Source: Paramylibacter ulvae (GTDB lineage Bacteria > Pseudomonadota > Alphaproteobacteria > Rhodobacterales > Rhodobacteraceae). From it: a stretch of 64,000 nucleotides of DNA. Where the stretch lies: contig NZ_BMZF01000004.1 of NCBI RefSeq assembly GCF_014652655.1, positions 1-64,000 of the forward strand, given 5' to 3'. Below the pieces are notes generated by a model. That model saw nothing but the letters and a program-made list of their open reading frames with translations. It was not told where the DNA came from and searched no databases. Below, in pieces: positions 47,855 to 55,890 of the stretch (within the stretch, counting starts at the first letter, position 1; each line of letters starts with the position of its first letter). Made by a program: the position numbers and the translations under genes.

Positions 47855-47880
47855 AAGCCGCGGGAATTATTCCGCGGCTT
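47855..47880. terminator. Terminator overlapping the topA stop codon
   Basis: AAGCCGCGG (47855-47863) pairs perfectly with CCGCGGCTT (47872-47880) around an 8-nt loop, followed by TGGTTTTT on the plus strand. It serves the membrane-protein gene and contains the topA stop (47867-47869) in its loop. Confidence 0.82.
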
Positions 47881-50500
47881 TGGTTTTTGAAGCGGCCTTT
47901 TTGGGGGCCGCTTTTTTTGCAGGTGCCTTTTTCTTGGCTGCCGCTTTTTTCTTGGGCGCAGCTTTCTTGCGCGCAGGTTTTGCCTTGCCTGCCTTTTCTG
48001 TGATCAATTCCACAGCCTTTTCCATTGTCACATCTGCAGGTTCGATGTCCTTTGGCAATGTTGCATTAACCTTGGCCCATTTGACATAGGGGCCATATCG
48101 ACCGTCCATGACGTTCACTGAGCCACCCTCGGTTGGGTGTTCACCCAATTCTTTCAACGGTGTCGCCGCGGCGCCGCGCCCAGTTTTATTGGCCTTTTCT
48201 GTGATCAATTCCACCGCGCGGTTCATGCCAACGGTAAAAACCTCTTCTGGGTCTTTCATGTTGGCATAGATTTTTTGTGCGGTTTTCTTACCTTCTTCCA
48301 GTGGTTTTTCCCACATCACATAGGGACCAAAACGCCCGATTGCGGCGGTGATTGTGCCCCCATCGGGATGGTCGCCAACCTTGCGCGGCAGGGATAACAA
48401 TTGCAATGCACGCTCGAGCCCTACCTCGCTGAGATCCGACCCTTTGGGGATGGATGCACGTGGTGGTTTTGGAATTTCATCCGTTGCATTGCCGCGCTGA
48501 ACATAGGGGCCAAAACGACCTGTTCGCAAGGTGATGGTTTCGCCGTCATCATCAAGCCCTAGCGGTTTCCCGTCGGGGCCTGCGATATCGCCACCCTCGA
48601 GTTCACCTGCCAATGGACGGGTGTATCGGCATTCGGGATAATTCGAACAGCCAATAAATGCACCACCTGATCGTGCGGTACGCATGGACAAACGCCCTGT
48701 GCCACATGTTTTACACACGCGTGGATCTGATCCATCCTCGGTTGGGGGGAACAGGTGGGGTTCCAACACCTCGTTGATTTTTTCCAATACTTCGGTGATG
48801 CGCAAATCGGCGGTTTCACCGATCGCAGCGGAAAAATCACGCCAGAAACGGGTCAGAACATCGATGTAATTAGCGTCACCTGCGGAAATTTCATCAAGTT
48901 CTTCTTCCAACTGGGCGGTGAAATTATAGCCCACGTATTGGCGGAAATAGTTTTCCAAAAAGGCGATCACCAATCGCCCTTTATCCTCGGCGATCAGGCG
49001 ATTTTTTTCTTTGCGCACATATTCGCGCGTTTGAATTGTTGTGACGATTGATGCATATGTCGATGGGCGACCGATGCCCAATTCTTCCATGCGTTTGACC
49101 AATGTCGCCTCTGTGTAACGGGGCGGTGGTTGGGTGAAATGCTGGTTCGGTGTGACCGATTTTTTCGCGCAAGCCTCGCCATTGGTTAGCTGTGGTAAAC
49201 GCTTGTCATCATCATCAATCACCGCGTCATCATCGCGACCTTCTTCGTAAACCTTTAAGAAACCTTCGAACGTGATCACTTGACCCGTGGCGCGCAGGCC
49301 AACCTGACCGTCATCCGATCCGATGTCGACCGTGGTACGTTCGATTTTGGCCGATGACATTTGGCTGGCAAGCGTACGTTTCCAAATCAAATCGTATAAT
49401 TTGCGTTGATCCGCTTCCAATTTGGACAGGCTTTCTGGCGTTGCGTCCATCACGGTTGGGCGAATACATTCGTGCGCCTCTTGTGCGTTTTTCGCTTTGT
49501 TTTTGTAAATGCGCGGCTCCGGTGACACAAATTCTTTGCCGTAGAGGCCAGAAATTGCGGTGCGTGCTTCGGTCACGGCTTCGGGAGCCATGTCGATGCC
49601 ATCGGTACGCATATATGTGATGTGTCCAGCCTCGTATAAACGTTGCGCGGTGGACATGGTTTGACGTGCGCCAAAGCCAAATTTGCGGCTTGCTTCTTGT
49701 TGCAGGGTCGATGTCATAAACGGTGCGGATGGGTTGCGATTGGCAGGTTTACTTTCGACCGATTGCACCGACAAATCACGCGAGGTGACGGCCTGAACCG
49801 CCATTTCCGCGCTGACCTCGTTTTCAAGATCGTATTTCTCAAGCTTTTTGCCGGCAAGCATACGCAAACTGGTATCAAAATCTTGGCCACGCGAATTGGT
49901 TAGGGTGGTTTTCACCGACCAATATTCGCGCGGTTTGAATTTTTCAATTTCCATTTCGCGTTCAACAATCAAACGCAGACATACGGATTGCACGCGCCCT
50001 GCGGATTTTGAACCGGGCAATTTGCGCCACAATACGGGCGAGAGGTTAAAACCCACCAGATAATCAAGCGCACGGCGTGCCAAATATGCCTCGACCAGTT
50101 CCATATCAACGGCGCGGGGATTTTTCATCGCTTCGGTTACGGCGGTTTTTGTGATGGCGTTGAACACAACGCGGCTTACGGCCGTGGACTTTTTGATCGC
50201 TTTGCGTTTGCGCAAAGTTTCTTCGAGATGCCAACTGATGGCTTCGCCTTCGCGGTCGGGGTCGGTTGCGAGGATCAGTTCATCATCGCTCTTAAGCGCA
50301 TCGGCAATGGCCTTGATGTGTTTGCGGCTGTCGTTTGCGACCTCCCATTTCATATCGAAATTATTGTCGGTATCAACCGAACCATCCTTGGGCGGCAGAT
50401 CACGCACGTGACCATAAGAGGCAAGCACGGTGTAGTCTTTGCCAAGGTATTTATTAATGGTCTTTGCTTTGGCAGGAGACTCGACAACAACAACAGGCAT
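47867..50500 (-). CDS. topA: DNA topoisomerase I
   Basis: Encodes 877 residues. Toprim domain (VVVVESPAKAKTINKYLG, ATDPDREGEAISWHL), catalytic Tyr in HITYMRTDG, then a single clear four-cysteine zinc ribbon (VCKTCGTGRL with IGCSNYPEC) followed by several zinc-less repeats (RTGRFGPYVQRG, AIGRFGPYVMWE, MDGRYGPYVKWA). The last 50 residues are Lys/Ala-rich (KKAAPKKAASK), a histone H1-like tail common in alphaproteobacterial TopA that strengthens DNA binding. It relaxes negative supercoils. AAAGGAA precedes the ATG. It lies downstream of dprA on the same strand, the usual dprA-topA order. Confidence 0.97.
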   Translation of the reverse strand: MPVVVVESPAKAKTINKYLGKDYTVLASYGHVRDLPPKDGSVDTDNNFDMKWEVANDSRKHIKAIADALKSDDELILATDPDREGEAISWHLEETLRKRKAIKKSTAVSRVVFNAITKTAVTEAMKNPRAVDMELVEAYLARRALDYLVGFNLSPVLWRKLPGSKSAGRVQSVCLRLIVEREMEIEKFKPREYWSVKTTLTNSRGQDFDTSLRMLAGKKLEKYDLENEVSAEMAVQAVTSRDLSVQSVESKPANRNPSAPFMTSTLQQEASRKFGFGARQTMSTAQRLYEAGHITYMRTDGIDMAPEAVTEARTAISGLYGKEFVSPEPRIYKNKAKNAQEAHECIRPTVMDATPESLSKLEADQRKLYDLIWKRTLASQMSSAKIERTTVDIGSDDGQVGLRATGQVITFEGFLKVYEEGRDDDAVIDDDDKRLPQLTNGEACAKKSVTPNQHFTQPPPRYTEATLVKRMEELGIGRPSTYASIVTTIQTREYVRKEKNRLIAEDKGRLVIAFLENYFRQYVGYNFTAQLEEELDEISAGDANYIDVLTRFWRDFSAAIGETADLRITEVLEKINEVLEPHLFPPTEDGSDPRVCKTCGTGRLSMRTARSGGAFIGCSNYPECRYTRPLAGELEGGDIAGPDGKPLGLDDDGETITLRTGRFGPYVQRGNATDEIPKPPRASIPKGSDLSEVGLERALQLLSLPRKVGDHPDGGTITAAIGRFGPYVMWEKPLEEGKKTAQKIYANMKDPEEVFTVGMNRAVELITEKANKTGRGAAATPLKELGEHPTEGGSVNVMDGRYGPYVKWAKVNATLPKDIEPADVTMEKAVELITEKAGKAKPARKKAAPKKKAAAKKKAPAKKAAPKKAASKTKAAE

Positions 50501-50610: not shown

Positions 50611-51735
50611 TTATGCCTTTCTTGCCAGCTTGCCACCTGGGTGGCGCGAAATATCGCCCGTGATTTCAAGTGCGGTGATTTGGGGGGAAACGGAATTTGT
50701 TGGCAAGCCTGTATCGCGGATCACGTCATCCTCGGAGACCGCAGAAGGGCCAAGCAGATTTAGAATCCGATCGGCAATTTGGCGCGCAGACAGGCGCGGG
50801 ATTTCAGCGGCGGGTGGTTCGGCAAACGCCATTTGCGATTGTTCGGGGCGGTCAAGTGACTCAAGGATGTCTGCACCGCTTCGGATTAATGTGGCCCCTT
50901 CGCGGATTAATATATTGCACCCTGTGGCGCGCCCATCCATGGGATTGCCGGGCACGGCCATCACCTCGCGCCCCAATTCGGCGGCGATACGTGCGGTGAT
51001 TAAACTGCCTGATCTTGCGGCACCTTCCACCACAACAATGGCGGATGAAACACCCGCGATGATACGGTTGCGTTGGGGAAAATGGCGTGCCTGTGGGATT
51101 AATCCGATGGGTTGTTCGGACAGGCGCAGACCCGATTGTGCGATATCATTTGTGAGTGCGTCATTTTCTTTGGGATAAATCACATCAAGGCCACCCGCTT
51201 GCACCGCGATTGTTCCCGTTTGCAAGCTTGCCTGATGTGCGGCGGCGTCGATACCACGCGCCAAACCCGATGCAACGCAAACGCCAGCTGCGCCCAATTC
51301 ACGCGCGATATTCCCCGCAATGCGCCGCCCCAACGATGATGCGTTGCGCGCACCAACCATGGCCACGATGTCGCGTTGCCCAAGTGTGATATTTCCCTGT
51401 GCCCATAAAAATGGCGGTGCGTCGGGGGCTTCGTTTAATAGCGTTGGATAATCTGGATGACCCAGAAATAACGGGGTGAACCCCAAATGCCGCCCCGCAT
51501 CATATTCGCGTTCGGCGACGCCAACGTTACAGGTTGTGTATTTTGAAACACCTGCGTCGCGCGCGATGTTTGGCAATGCGTCAAGTGCCGCATCAACCGA
51601 TTCATATTCATTCAACAGACGGATGAATGTCGCGGGCCCCACCCGGCGCGATCGGGTCAGGCGCAGCCAGTTGATCTGATCCTTCACGGATTTCGGCATG
51701 CGGTTGGGTGGTATTTTGTGGAATCGTTCGCTCAT
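50611..51735 (-). CDS. dprA: DNA-processing protein DprA (Smf)
   Basis: Encodes 374 residues. An N-terminal SAM-like part (LRLTRSRRVGPATFIRLL) precedes the Rossmann domain with VAMVGARNASSLGRRIA, ASGLARGIDAAAHQASL, AVQAGGLDVIYPKEN and HFPQRNRIIAG, VVVEGAARSGSLITARIA. The C-terminal winged helix (residues 310-374) is of the DprA type (LLGPSAVSEDDVIRDTGLPT). DprA loads RecA on incoming single strands in transformation. The start region overlaps the last gene of the Tat-paralogue array: with the ATG at 51735 the overlap is 128 nt, and no good ribosome site is seen, so translation is probably coupled. A start at 51699 (MPKSVKD) is possible. Confidence 0.94.
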   Translation of the reverse strand: MSERFHKIPPNRMPKSVKDQINWLRLTRSRRVGPATFIRLLNEYESVDAALDALPNIARDAGVSKYTTCNVGVAEREYDAGRHLGFTPLFLGHPDYPTLLNEAPDAPPFLWAQGNITLGQRDIVAMVGARNASSLGRRIAGNIARELGAAGVCVASGLARGIDAAAHQASLQTGTIAVQAGGLDVIYPKENDALTNDIAQSGLRLSEQPIGLIPQARHFPQRNRIIAGVSSAIVVVEGAARSGSLITARIAAELGREVMAVPGNPMDGRATGCNILIREGATLIRSGADILESLDRPEQSQMAFAEPPAAEIPRLSARQIADRILNLLGPSAVSEDDVIRDTGLPTNSVSPQITALEITGDISRHPGGKLARKA

Positions 51736-52195
51736 GTTCTGACTGTGTCACCTGATGGTTAACAGAGTTTGAATCATTTGATTCAATTTCACCCGCTTCA
51801 TCATCATTCAACATTTTTTCAGCACGTTCGCGCAGATTGGATTTCAACGAAGCCTGATCGGTATTTTGGGAATACAGGTTCGCAACACGTTCAGCCGAAC
51901 GCCCGAATGGTTTCAGTGTTTTACTGACCCCCAGCGCATCCGGCATCGTAATGACGTTTTCCTTAAGCAGCACATCATAGACATGTTGTGCCATTTCATC
52001 GGTTAGCGCCAATTGGCGTTTGAACATGGCTGGGGATGCTTTGTCATGGATGCGCGCCGTGAATGCGGCCCAGCTATACGGGTGTTGAAACATATGAAGC
52101 GGCGTTGTCGTCGCGGTTTTTGCAAGTGCTGCGGCGGGGATTGCGGGCGCGCTGATCAATGCGGCGAGCGATTGGGTGAATTGACGACGGTTCAT
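51608..52195 (-). CDS. Tat-type exported paralogue 5 (last of the array, overlaps dprA)
   Basis: Encodes 195 residues. Signal MNRRQFTQSLAALISAPAIP with a twin-arginine motif (N-R-R-Q-F) and an A-x-A cut site near residue 25. The shared core follows: an aromatic helix (YSWAAFTARIHDKASPAMF), ALTDEMAQHVYDVLLKENVI and a 'P-D-A-L-G-V-S-K-T-L-K-P' end. The tail from about 110 is polar, with repeated Asn/Gln/Glu/Asp, and its last 43 codons lie inside the dprA start region in another frame. The ATG overlaps the previous gene's stop as ATGA. Function unknown. Confidence 0.78.
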   Translation of the reverse strand: MNRRQFTQSLAALISAPAIPAAALAKTATTTPLHMFQHPYSWAAFTARIHDKASPAMFKRQLALTDEMAQHVYDVLLKENVITMPDALGVSKTLKPFGRSAERVANLYSQNTDQASLKSNLRERAEKMLNDDEAGEIESNDSNSVNHQVTQSEHERTIPQNTTQPHAEIREGSDQLAAPDPIAPGGARDIHPSVE

Positions 52196-52605
52196 ATGGT
52201 TGGTTCCTGTGGCAACGCAGTTTTGGTTCCATCCTCGTCCGCGATGATGCGATTTGCCAGTTTTTTAACATTGGTGGTGTCGAAATTTAGACTGGTTCGA
52301 TTCATGGTGGCAATATCGGGGCGGATGGTTTGATACACGCCTTGGGCATTTGCGGCGGTGACTACGTTGGTTTTAACCAGATGCCGCATCACGTCTTGTG
52401 CCAGTGGTTGGGGAATTTGCAAGATAGAGGTCAGCGTTTTGGCGGTGATGTCTGGGCGTGCCTGCGCAATGCCGCGCCCCCATAAATGTGCATATTGTGC
52501 CGATTTCGCACCGAGCGTTTTTGTTACGCCTGACGGTGTCGCAATTGATATGTTTGGCATAACAGCAGCTGCGCCAAGTGCGAGTGTGAATTGACGCCGG
52601 TTCAT
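52192..52605 (-). CDS. Tat-type exported paralogue 4
   Basis: Encodes 137 residues. Signal MNRRQFTLALGAAAVMPNIS. The core is AQYAHLWGRGIAQARPDI, then LQIPQPLAQDVMRHLVKTNV and TAANAQGVYQTIRPDI. Its middle helix and 'K-T-N-V-[VI]-x-[AP]-A-N-A-Q-G-V' stretch are almost the same as those of the first array gene (54140), showing close paralogy. The tail is short and polar. Overlaps both neighbours by ATGA. No catalytic motif recognised. Confidence 0.8.
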   Translation of the reverse strand: MNRRQFTLALGAAAVMPNISIATPSGVTKTLGAKSAQYAHLWGRGIAQARPDITAKTLTSILQIPQPLAQDVMRHLVKTNVVTAANAQGVYQTIRPDIATMNRTSLNFDTTNVKKLANRIIADEDGTKTALPQEPTI

Positions 52606-53042
52606 GATGTTTCCTCAGGTGTTGATTGCGCTGTTTCCTGTGGATCTGTTTCCACGGGTTCATCAATGATACGTTCAATCGTGGATCTGATATCTGGTTT
52701 TTTGACGATGTTGGAAACGGTCACCGCGCTTTGTTGTGCGACGCGCAATGCGGCATCGGACAATTTCCAATAGGGCGCAATGGCGCGTACAAAACCGTTT
52801 TCATCGGGAACTGAAATCACATTTTGTGATTGCAATTTGGCAATGATGGATAGTGTTTCATCCTCTGTCGTGTTGAGCACACCCATAAACATTTCAGGTG
52901 CGGCACGATCCCAGAGGTTTGCGTAGTACACCGCGCGTTCATACAGATTGGATTGCGTAAGCCCGCCCAACCCAAATGTGAGCGGTTTGATCGGTGCGGA
53001 TGCGATGGCGCCAAGGCCTTGTGTGAATTGGCGACGGTTCAT
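52602..53042 (-). CDS. Tat-type exported paralogue 3
   Basis: Encodes 146 residues. Signal MNRRQFTQGLGAIASAPIKP; the cleavage site is not evident (TFGLGG follows) so it may stay anchored. Core: RAVYYANLWDRAAPEMFMG, NTTEDETLSIIAKLQSQNVI and VPDENGFVRAIAPYWK. The tail is acidic (ERIIDEPVETDPQETAQSTP). The start overlaps the previous stop as ATGA. Compared with the others its second helix is more acidic. Unknown function. Confidence 0.8.
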   Translation of the reverse strand: MNRRQFTQGLGAIASAPIKPLTFGLGGLTQSNLYERAVYYANLWDRAAPEMFMGVLNTTEDETLSIIAKLQSQNVISVPDENGFVRAIAPYWKLSDAALRVAQQSAVTVSNIVKKPDIRSTIERIIDEPVETDPQETAQSTPEETS

Positions 53043-53707
53043 AACATTGGTTCCTGATCTGAAAGGGTGTGTGGTGATTGATCACCAAGTACAGTGGCGT
53101 TTGCGTGATCGCGCAGCGTTGTTTCAGCGTCGGCAGTTTGTGCAAACAGATGACAAATGGATGTTCCGTTGTGAATGTAAAACCCCACAGGCGCACCAAT
53201 GGCACCGATGACGATAGTGTTGGCAAGTTCGGTATGAAGGTATGTATTGATGTCTTCGCAAGGTTGATCTGAGTTTTGTTCCCAGATTTCCGCGAGCGCT
53301 GGTATATCGTCTTGGACAGCGTTGCGTGGTTGTTCGTGGGGTTGTGGGGTGTTTGTCGTATTTGTGCGTTTGGCTTGCTGTTTTGGTTCAACTGTTTTTG
53401 ACGCGGCATGTGGAATGGATTTTGGTTGGCGTGCGACCAAGTTGGGGTGGGCAGCACCACTGGCGGTGAGGTAATTTTCAGCGATCAGTTGTGCGTGAAT
53501 GAGTTTTGCTGTGCTTTGATCAATGCGCAAAAAAGGCGCGAGCATTTGTGGGCTACAGACCTTGTGCATACGCGTAAGATAATCCGCCCAGCAATAGGCC
53601 ATGCTGGGCACCGCAGTTTGTGCAACAGGTGTCGCCAATGCTGCCGTTGGCAATGCGGGTGCAGCGAAAAGGGCGGCGATGGATTGGGAGAATTGGCGCC
53701 TATTCAT
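53039..53707 (-). CDS. Tat-type exported paralogue 2, enlarged
   Basis: Encodes 222 residues, the longest of the array. Signal MNRRQFSQSIAALFAAPALP with a good A-L-A site. The core aromatic helix and P-L helix are kept (MAYCWADYLTRMHKVCSPQM, RIDQSTAKLIHAQLIAENYL) but the 'N-V-I-x-P-N-A-x-G-V' turn is altered to NYLTASGAAHP. A Gln/Pro/Thr/Asn-rich linker (90-135) leads to an extra C-terminal segment with a hydrophobic patch (NTIVIGAIGAPVGFYIH) not seen in the others. The ATG at 53707 was chosen by the shared MNRRQF start. It overlaps the first gene by 8 nt. Confidence 0.78.
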   Translation of the reverse strand: MNRRQFSQSIAALFAAPALPTAALATPVAQTAVPSMAYCWADYLTRMHKVCSPQMLAPFLRIDQSTAKLIHAQLIAENYLTASGAAHPNLVARQPKSIPHAASKTVEPKQQAKRTNTTNTPQPHEQPRNAVQDDIPALAEIWEQNSDQPCEDINTYLHTELANTIVIGAIGAPVGFYIHNGTSICHLFAQTADAETTLRDHANATVLGDQSPHTLSDQEPML

Positions 53708-54140
53708 CTGTTTCAGGCTCTTTGATCGGTTCAACCGAAATGTCGCACTCGTCAAAATGGTGTTTGATCTGTGAAAGCGATTTTCGTGCGTCGGGCTGTT
53801 TGGCCGCAATGTTTTGAATTGGCGCAGGTGTGTCGAAATAATCTATCGCCTTGAACACGCCCTGCGCATTTGCCGGCGCGATGACATTTGTTTTGATCAG
53901 ATGTTGCATCAAGTCTGTCGCGACATCGGGTGGAAATGAATAATTATGGATGAATGTTTCGAGCGTCAGATTATCGTGAATACGTGCGGCAAATCCCGCC
54001 ATCCCATATGCATCGAGCCCTGTTTTGGCAACGTAGGCCGCAGCGGGTGATGTGCCCATTGCACCGATGGCAAAGCGCGTGGGCGCGGCAAGTGCGCCAC
54101 CCGTGGCGAGGATGGATTGTGTAAATTGGCGTCTGTTCAT
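53700..54140 (-). CDS. Tat-type exported paralogue 1 (first of the array)
   Basis: Encodes 146 residues. Signal MNRRQFTQSILATGGALAAP. The core is DAYGMAGFAARIHDNLTLET, FPPDVATDLMQHLIKTNVI and APANAQGVFKAIDYFD. The helix-turn-helix-like order (short helix, 'D-x-A-x-x-L-x-x-x-L-x-x-x-N-V-I' helix, then a wing-like 'N-A-x-G-V') resembles a winged helix, although an exported winged helix would be unusual. It is the promoter-proximal gene; 146 bp separate it from tldD's stop on the same strand, and that spacer carries a dispersed repeat. Confidence 0.8.
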   Translation of the reverse strand: MNRRQFTQSILATGGALAAPTRFAIGAMGTSPAAAYVAKTGLDAYGMAGFAARIHDNLTLETFIHNYSFPPDVATDLMQHLIKTNVIAPANAQGVFKAIDYFDTPAPIQNIAAKQPDARKSLSQIKHHFDECDISVEPIKEPETDE

Positions 54141-54286: not shown

Positions 54287-55714
54287 TTAAGTTTGTGAGC
54301 CACCCACGGTGAGCCCACCGATCAACAATGTTGGCTGACCAACGCCCACGGGCACCCATTGACCCGCCTTGCCACAATTACCCATGCCGGGGTCAAGTGC
54401 CATATCGTTGCCAATGGCGCGGATATGTTTCAGGGCGGTTGCCCCATCGCCGATTAGTGTTGCCCCTTTGACGGGTGCGCCGATTTTACCGTTTTTGACA
54501 CGGTAAGCCTCGGTACAGGAAAACACGAATTTTCCGTTGGTGATATCGACCTGACCACCGCCAAACCCAACGGCATATATACCATCTTTAATGTCGGCAA
54601 CGATTTCAGAAGGATCCGCATTGCCGCCTTCCATATAGGTGTTGGTCATGCGCGGCATTGGGGCATGCGCATAGCTTTCGCGTCGTCCATTGCCCGTGGG
54701 GGCGACACCCATCAAGCGTGCATTTTGACGATCTTGCATATAGCCGACCAGAATACCGTCTTCGATCAGGGTGTTTTTTTGTGATTGTGTGCCTTCGTCA
54801 TCAAAGCTGATGGAGCCGCGACGATCAGGGATTGTGCCATCGTCCAGAACGGTGACACCTTTGGCGGCGACTTGTTTCCCCATCAGCCCCGCAAAGGCAG
54901 AGGTTTTTTTGCGGTTAAAATCGCCTTCTAGTCCGTGGCCGACAGCCTCGTGTAGCAAGATACCCGGCCAGCCATTGCCAAGGGCTACGTCAAACACACC
55001 TGCGGGGGCAGGTTCGGCATCAAGATTAACAAGCGCGATGCGCAATGCCTCTTTCGCGGTTTTTTGCCAGTGATCAGATTGCAAAAGTGGGGAAAGCAAA
55101 TAGCGGCCACCGCCTCCTGCGGATCCGCTTTCGCGCCGCCCGTTTTGTTCAACAATGACGCTGACGTTTAGGCGGGTCATCGGGCGCACATCGCGCAAAA
55201 TTGTACCCTCGGGTCGCATGATTTCAACCTCTTGTAGGCTGGCGGCGATTGTCGCGCTGACCTGTACCACGCGTTTATCGAGGGTTCGGGTGAAATCGTC
55301 GATCTCTTTCAGGGTTTCGATTTTGACAGAAAATTCTGCATCGGCCATTGGATCGGCATCGGTGTAAAGGCGTTGATTGGTTGCCTGTGGTGCGCTTGCA
55401 AGGGTGGCACCACCCGCGCCAACCGCGAGGCGAGCAGTTTCAGCGGCGCGTTTCAGTGCGGATTCGGTCATTGTTGTGGAATGGGCATAACCCGCAGTTT
55501 CACCGCGCACGGCGCGAAGGCCAAAACCCTCTGACGCGTTGTAGCTGGCGTTTTTGAGACGGCCATCATCGAATACCAATGCCTCTGATTTACGCCGTTC
55601 CAGAAATAATTCCCCATCATCGGCACCCGCTACTGCGTTTTGCAGAGTTTTTAGGGCAGCTTTTTCGTCGATATCGGTTTCAAACGGGCGAAAGGGCGCT
55701 GTTTGGTTGTTCAT
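54287..55714 (-). CDS. tldD: Metalloprotease TldD
   Basis: Encodes 475 residues. The modified zinc site HEAVGHGLEGD (H-E-x-x-x-H) is present, with further family blocks ERRKSEALVFDDGRLKNASY, GFGLRAVRGETAGYAHST, GNGRRESYAHAPMPRMTNTY and FVFSCTEAYRVKNG. TldD works with TldE/PmbA in degrading peptides and CcdA-type antitoxins; the partner gene is not here. The ATG at 55714 has AAAGGA upstream. It is divergent from ctaC, as in many Rhodobacterales. Confidence 0.97.
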   Translation of the reverse strand: MNNQTAPFRPFETDIDEKAALKTLQNAVAGADDGELFLERRKSEALVFDDGRLKNASYNASEGFGLRAVRGETAGYAHSTTMTESALKRAAETARLAVGAGGATLASAPQATNQRLYTDADPMADAEFSVKIETLKEIDDFTRTLDKRVVQVSATIAASLQEVEIMRPEGTILRDVRPMTRLNVSVIVEQNGRRESGSAGGGGRYLLSPLLQSDHWQKTAKEALRIALVNLDAEPAPAGVFDVALGNGWPGILLHEAVGHGLEGDFNRKKTSAFAGLMGKQVAAKGVTVLDDGTIPDRRGSISFDDEGTQSQKNTLIEDGILVGYMQDRQNARLMGVAPTGNGRRESYAHAPMPRMTNTYMEGGNADPSEIVADIKDGIYAVGFGGGQVDITNGKFVFSCTEAYRVKNGKIGAPVKGATLIGDGATALKHIRAIGNDMALDPGMGNCGKAGQWVPVGVGQPTLLIGGLTVGGSQT

Positions 55715-55890
55715 TTGTGCTGTCCTTTTGATAAATCTGTCCAAAAGCGGCTGAATGCCGCAAAGGGAATACTTGTTCTTTTGCCCTTATTATGGTTTTT
55801 CAGGCCAAGGAAACAACTGGGGATTCTCTTGTTACATTGTAAGAGCCCCGAAAAATGGCTAAAACAGCCAAGAATGACAGGATCGGACGC

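Follow-up and report, generated by a model that had tools for sequence, protein, structure and literature searches.

Here, we describe five tandem genes of Paramylibacter ulvae that encode a family of small, putatively exported proteins built around a domain of the chromosome pump FtsK. The genes lie in a window of 64,000 nucleotides (nt), positions 1 to 64,000 of contig NZ_BMZF01000004.1 (assembly GCF_014652655.1), from a genome of 3.17 Mb. The core of these proteins is very probably a winged helix that either descends from the FtsK gamma domain or is its sister. Aligned against FtsK, the residues that read DNA are replaced and the hydrophobic scaffold is retained; a leader that resembles those of twin-arginine translocation (Tat) substrates precedes the core. 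Our tentative interpretation, to which we give somewhat less than an even chance, is that these are exported, DNA-blind winged helices that would act as mutually assembling adaptor subunits in the periplasm. The members of the array are as follows, in order of translation, with the ratio of nonsynonymous to synonymous substitution rates (dN/dS) where it applies to the whole gene:

53700..54140, minus strand: P0002, first gene; Tat-type leader, FtsK gamma-like winged helix and short acidic tail, 146 residues (E 8.9e-54; dN/dS 0.18)
53039..53707, minus strand: P0001, second gene; leader, winged helix and truncated, degenerate GNAT fold, 222 residues (dN/dS 0.14)
52602..53042, minus strand: P0003, third gene; leader, winged helix and acidic tail, 146 residues (dN/dS 0.13)
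52192..52605, minus strand: P0004, fourth gene; leader, winged helix and tail without net charge, 137 residues (dN/dS 0.17)
51608..52195, minus strand: P0005, fifth gene; leader, winged helix, long helix and acidic tail, 195 residues; 3' end overprinted on the start of dprA
51902..52090, minus strand: FtsK gamma-like winged helix of P0005, approximately residues 36–98

A preliminary description of this DNA had noted five genes in a row starting with MNRRQF(T/S), and all five open reading frames (ORFs) are where it placed them, on the minus strand and with that start. The overlaps between successive genes are 8, 4, 4 and 4 nt, within the 4–8 nt that it gave. Its claim of an expanded, tightly overlapping set of paralogues also holds: a search of the genome with P0005 retrieves the other four proteins at E values of 4.2e-12 to 2.6e-7, i.e., paralogy beyond chance. 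The other window members are 23–29% identical to P0002. The common core stands as well, with looser motifs than those described; P0001 has NYL for NVI, and P0003 has NGFVRAI for AxGVxKAI. The variable tails are acidic in four of the five proteins. Absent from that description is the identity of the core as an FtsK gamma-like winged helix, a fold that is normally cytoplasmic.

Kinship with FtsK gamma is supported by profiles and by structure. In a profile–profile comparison (hhalign), the family matches FtsK gamma with 96% probability over 51 ungapped columns, with 50 shuffled controls at or below 1.4%. An AlphaFold2 model of P0005 has block-mean predicted local distance difference test scores of 91–95 over residues 41–90, and FtsK gamma chains take ranks 1–4 of the 1,000 structures aligned to this model, two of them with a clear lead and two so close to the following structure as to count as tied with it. 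FtsK is also the main runner-up in family-profile searches of whole genomes. In a smaller alignment of 42 members, from which all counts out of 42 below are taken, Pfam FtsK_gamma matches 10, and those with scores seen fall below the cut-off of 30.6 bits. For the P0001 model, FtsK gamma is absent from the 50 structural matches listed; GNAT fills that list, and the search is evidence neither way. P0004 has a weak match to the TrmB winged helix (E 0.018). The five window proteins (137–222 residues) have no Pfam match to a motor domain and no match above a curated cut-off in Pfam or NCBIfam, ruling out membership in a known family of these databases at that level. Mimicry of the DprA winged helix (PF17782) was rejected, with an hhalign probability of 1%.

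The family diverges from FtsK gamma at the residues used to read DNA. According to two papers, R1300, E1303 and E1306 contribute to recognition of KOPS (FtsK orienting polar sequences; PMC2680272), and residues 1289–1297 touch XerD (PMC5052618). We compared these positions between 31 FtsK sequences (the 30 best-scoring loci plus the genome's own FtsK) and a larger alignment with 51 of the 67 listed family members, which leaves out 14 near-duplicates and two fragments, L098 at a contig end and L103 truncated by the choice of start. All 31 FtsK sequences entered the residue counts and the hhalign comparison without a motif filter; charge and K/R counts use the 26 kept by a filter that required E at 1306 (5 of 31 dropped). 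At least two of R1300, E1303 and E1306 are kept in all 31 FtsK sequences and in none of the 51 family members. The XerD-contact surface (R1289 and the neighbouring RQFRIGYNR) is not preserved in the family: R1289 is kept in 18/51 members and, of the following GYN, G in none and N in one. By contrast with FtsK, where 25/26 recognition helices have two or three K/R residues, 39/51 members have none or one. The scaffold columns of the same helix are A in 48/51 members and L or M in 51/51. For the five window proteins, the net charge of the domain lies between −4 and +3.

We are confident, albeit slightly less so than for the core, that the leader is Tat-type, as the preliminary description had it. 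The twin arginine (RR) is present in 51/51 aligned members (partly by selection; see below), the residue at RR+2 is hydrophobic in 49/51, and 46/51 have no charge from RR+5 to RR+16. The median best 12-residue hydropathy of the leader is a modest 1.62. The genome encodes TatC (E 2.9e-66), the one Tat component looked for. Actual export of the family proteins we regard as somewhat more probable than not.

The array genes look like working genes that evolve faster than their surroundings, since their dN/dS against Amylibacter kogurei is 0.13–0.26, compared with 0.05 for dprA and 0.02 for tldD. A. kogurei (Rhodobacteraceae) is the nearest named relative found, with a P0005 orthologue that is 79% identical. 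Four array genes have ratios of 0.13–0.18, which are rough for P0001, P0003 and P0004 because dS exceeds 1 for them; P0005 has a ratio of 0.26, or 0.17 outside its overlap with dprA. Pseudogenes or an overprinting artefact are ruled out by ratios well below 1. A sixth family copy is found in the same genome (G000:C1, ~497 kb), flanked by an HNH endonuclease gene and a convergent dsbB. When the leader is removed, a profile of the core still recovers 21 of 25 members that are more distant, at E values between 9.3e-21 and 5e-4; all 25 had originally been retrieved through a leader-plus-core profile match.

P0001 differs from its neighbours in carrying an extra C-terminal domain, which aligns with family–GNAT fusions from other genomes as a truncated GNAT fold (53057–53338). 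All 50 listed structural matches to the P0001 model fall on residues 115–221, the GNAT part. In the window and in A. kogurei, the fused domain is shortened and lacks the acetyl-CoA loop, yet P0001 is still modelled with a truncated GNAT fold. With a dN/dS of 0.14 and a GNAT-like fold devoid of that loop, P0001 is possibly a pseudo-enzyme. Loss of the acetyl-CoA site would fit export, because the cofactor is absent there. GNAT models match 4/42 members. A lone GNAT gene also occupies the tldD–dprA gap in seven of the 14 congeners that have a dprA match but no family gene (a weak 28.8% match in G012 is uncounted), and lies beside a family gene in G017 and G032.

The surroundings of the array within the window are as follows:

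54287..55744, minus strand: tldD, upstream neighbour, outside the family
50611..51735, minus strand: dprA, downstream neighbour, outside the family; DprA_N, DNA_processg_A and DprA_WH
47867..50500, minus strand: topA, downstream of dprA; the order tldD, array, dprA, topA is conserved

Occurrence of the family is patchy. Genome samples are draws, with at most 12, 11 or 15 candidates scored per genome across the family-profile searches (11 in the class draw, 15 in the family draw). Within the genus, the family is present in 11 of 33 genomes, with 43 copies, of which 30 are at the tldD–dprA site; seven genus genomes have a copy adjoining an HNH gene (in G019, the contig stops short of the dsbB side). 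In the draw from the taxonomic family, 16/296 genomes have leader-plus-core matches, at E values of 1.5e-24 or better. Among the matches listed for the class draw (387 genomes), the source genome itself matches, and the next best (1.1e-9, in G388) is FtsK gamma. Two metagenome-assembled genomes (MAGs) labelled as belonging to the Rhizobiaceae group, labels that are unchecked, also carry a family gene. Because all members were found with leader-containing profiles, leaderless relatives would have been missed or ranked low. Outside the genus, the neighbours confirmed by family models are leuC (ahead of copies in G370, G186 and G150), leuD (behind copies in G206 and G186), ettA (upstream in G186 and G241, with one ORF between in G241) and argG (facing the copy in G244). 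We take the four-gene array of G104 to be at the leuC site, going by its sequence and the tree. Tandem arrangement is recurrent, with 12 arrays whose 25 junctions comprise 18 overlaps of 4 nt, four of 8 nt, one of 14 nt and two short gaps.

If these proteins are exported, a DNA-binding fold of the chromosome segregation machinery has been reused outside the cytoplasm and expanded into arrays. We propose that the winged helix would fold in the cytoplasm, with Tat then exporting the folded protein, and that in the periplasm it would act as a protein-binding module, not as a reader of DNA. The ATGA overlaps would couple translation of neighbouring genes, such that the paralogues would be made in a fixed proportion, and the different subtypes could assemble into an accessory envelope complex. 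Such a joint complex is conceivable, and we hold it a little less firmly than the reading as a whole. More speculative still, and in our view unlikely, is the full evolutionary scenario, in which the DNA-reading tip of a chromosome pump lost its reading residues, gained a Tat leader and multiplied into the co-translated subunits of a new periplasmic machine. An envelope building block of this type may act at the division site, where FtsK itself sits, or in vesicle formation. The reading turns unannotated genes into a named, testable family, with predicted Tat dependence, mutual stabilisation and lack of KOPS binding; A. kogurei is a named strain with the same array in which these predictions can be tried.

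Several observations weigh against this proposal. Both winged helices and GNAT enzymes are usually cytoplasmic; moreover, typical Tat substrates carry cofactors, and a winged helix would be unusual cargo. The leader figures are partly built in, because members were found with leader-containing profiles; an AxA-like motif is present in 49/51 members, as judged by a permissive pattern without a control, and Pfam TAT_signal (PF10518) matches only 9/42 members at E values up to 1. The net charge of the domain has a median of +3 (range −4 to +6), compared with +2 for FtsK gamma, and this similarity does not favour a DNA-blind domain. GNAT domains are fused behind the family leader in G003, G005, G027 and G035, and those of G005 and G027 score above Pfam cut-offs. 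These fuller fusions argue against export, unless the internal Met that immediately precedes the GNAT domain, in an identical position in three of the four fusions, is a separate start. As for the core, FtsK reaches an E value of only 0.74 when the family profile is run against solved sequences, with better values for a HORMA-domain protein (0.028), eIF3 subunit E (0.055) and eS25 (0.058), and just four of nine sub-cut-off Pfam FtsK_gamma matches (E <0.1, 41 genomes) are family members. The tree of the 51 members is well supported at only 14/48 inner branches, with unsettled bootstrap values and long branches for P0002, P0003 and P0004.

One alternative is that the leader is not used for export and the proteins stay on the cytoplasmic face, held by an uncleaved leader, as motor-less mini-FtsK proteins or DNA-binding regulators. 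The cytoplasmic character of both domains, the family–GNAT fusions with their shared internal Met (3/4) and a median domain charge of +3 (−4 to +6) against the +2 of FtsK gamma all point that way. We nonetheless consider it rather unlikely, given the twin arginine in 51/51 members (partly selection), followed by a mildly hydrophobic stretch (median 1.62) that is uncharged in 46/51, and given the loss of the KOPS-reading residues and the window domains' net charges of −4 to +3. The same losses bear on the idea that the proteins are exported and bind DNA in the periplasm, e.g., incoming DNA or dif-region DNA in vesicles. Here, the fold itself, the array placed before dprA and the FtsK gamma-like charge are favourable, as is the vesicle DNA rich in dif that is reported for the related roseobacter Dinoroseobacter shibae (PMC7901474). 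With the KOPS residues not kept in any of 51 members, 0–1 K/R in 39/51 recognition helices, dprA commonly found without the family in the genus and no dprA beside the retrieved copies in 13/14 carriers outside it, periplasmic DNA binding seems improbable to us. About equally improbable is that the family is mainly a genomic passenger: a small gene inserting among housekeeping genes and multiplying at those sites, from which the host gains little. Its patchy occurrence (11/33 congeners, 16/296 genomes), its long branches and its unrelated sites (beside leuC/leuD, between HNH and dsbB genes, after ettA and facing argG) would suit a passenger; dN/dS values of 0.13–0.26 in all five genes between related species, and the same sites kept across species, would not.

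The preliminary description had suggested a surface or periplasmic assembly, perhaps related to competence in view of dprA, and had proposed a profile count of copies per genome together with their link to dprA. That count gave the 43 copies in 11/33 congeners, 30 of them at tldD–dprA, and the linkage proved not to be constant. A DprA-linked machine gains some credit from the fact that all 11 carrier congeners have at least one copy at this site (the G005 contig starts inside the array, such that tldD is unseen). However, dprA is found in 25/33 congeners, with no dprA match in the other 8, and none of the 14 family-lacking congeners in which dprA is found has a family gene in the 1.5 kb before it. 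Of the 14 carriers outside the genus in the draw from the taxonomic family, only G035 has its copy at tldD–dprA; the other 13 have no tldD, dprA or topA in the retrieved flanks of their copies, flanks that stop at contig ends and do not include one weak G142 copy. Together with the 1% profile comparison to the DprA winged helix, these counts leave the competence suggestion with very little probability, and it was rejected as the principal explanation on the dprA linkage.

Our preferred reading, periplasmic adaptors related to FtsK gamma, can be set beside known systems. With the gamma domain of FtsK/SpoIIIE (PF09397; PDB 2ve8, 2ve9, 2j5o and 2j5p), the family shares the winged-helix fold, the ungapped 51-column match and the top structural ranks. 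Unlike FtsK, it has neither motor nor membrane domain, and the Tat-type leader stands in the motor's place; it also differs in lacking the KOPS residues (51 members), in keeping R1289 in only 18/51, and in consisting of small genes, often in tandem arrays. Gamma domains outside FtsK have precedents: the available part of one paper reports stand-alone FtsK_gamma-like genes in phages, of unknown role, and an FtsK_gamma domain in the small terminase of phages Sam46 and Sam112, with DNA-binding sites conserved in both phage domains (PMC8190038). The window family, by contrast, has lost those sites, and that part of the paper does not mention an export leader for the phage proteins. Since stand-alone FtsK_gamma genes are known in phages, the family is a new form of a known domain, not a new fold. 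Likeness to Tat-exported proteins (PF10518) consists of the RRxF leader, the weakly hydrophobic h-region and the AxA-like end, set against the few matches to the Pfam model (9/42). Likeness to GNAT acetyltransferases (PF00583 and relatives) consists of the four fusions and the truncated fold of P0001, which differs from them in its missing acetyl-CoA loop and C-terminal part. We found no description of exported FtsK gamma-like proteins in the titles and partial abstracts of the open-licence papers searched.

The tree contains well-supported groups that cross species; some subtypes are thus older than the species that carry them. The final gene of the G019 array groups with P0005 (100/99), and the gene before it with P0002 and P0004 (98/92), although the pairing of P0004 with that gene alone reaches only 84/36. 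P0001 falls with the G005 fusion gene (98/96). Another group unites the final genes of the G104 and G370 arrays with the genes that occur singly at the leuC site in G206, G186 and G150 (99/95). We are unsure of the deeper branching order.

A phage or plasmid origin was considered and rejected for the single sequence tried in each case: L097 has no match in 50,697 phage records at E 0.01, and P0005 has none in plasmids. Of 10 members scanned against PHROGs, four have any match at E 0.1, the best being L097, which matches phrog_13700 (“FtsK/SpoIIIE-like protein”) at 1.8e-5. No systematic search for mobile elements was made; by eye, one transposase-like ORF is ~7 kb from the L097 copy. In both Rhizobiaceae-labelled MAGs (L096 7460–7930, L097 7416–7886), the family gene follows a similar gene, which is a Glyoxalase_8 (PF20066) protein in L096; its L097 counterpart was identified by eye only.

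Two family genes overlap neighbours outside the family. P0005 and dprA share 128 nt if dprA is taken as its longest ORF (ATG at 51735), or 92 nt if it starts at the ATG at 51699; over 51608–51735, the end of P0005 overprints the first part of dprA and reaches the initial residues of the conserved DprA_N domain, which begins at residue 19 of the longer ORF. The dS of P0005 against A. kogurei is 0.445 with the overlapping stretch and 0.615 without it. The tail of the sixth copy runs antisense into the end of dsbB (L008 5853–5936), and congeners have similar words in this tail, so dsbB may account for some of its conservation. A pattern scan found three promoter-like sites where 3.4 were expected, and 12 terminator-like sites on both strands where 4.9 were expected; we leave the latter uninterpreted.

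Weak core-only matches in short frames of 92–292 residues (G057:C16:18999-19256, G056:C19:38601-38834 and G323:C25:24065-24241) are possible leaderless relatives. Three congeners that are 92–99% complete (G002, G007 and G030) have no dprA match at E 1e-20, and the dprA of one MAG (G022:C1:778907-779957; L040 5791–6967) is split over two reading frames. Lastly, a local profile finds an FtsK gamma match in a 358-residue frame of L153 (G568:C88:124198-124446, E 1.2e-8), and the same genome has a second match, in an 826-residue frame.

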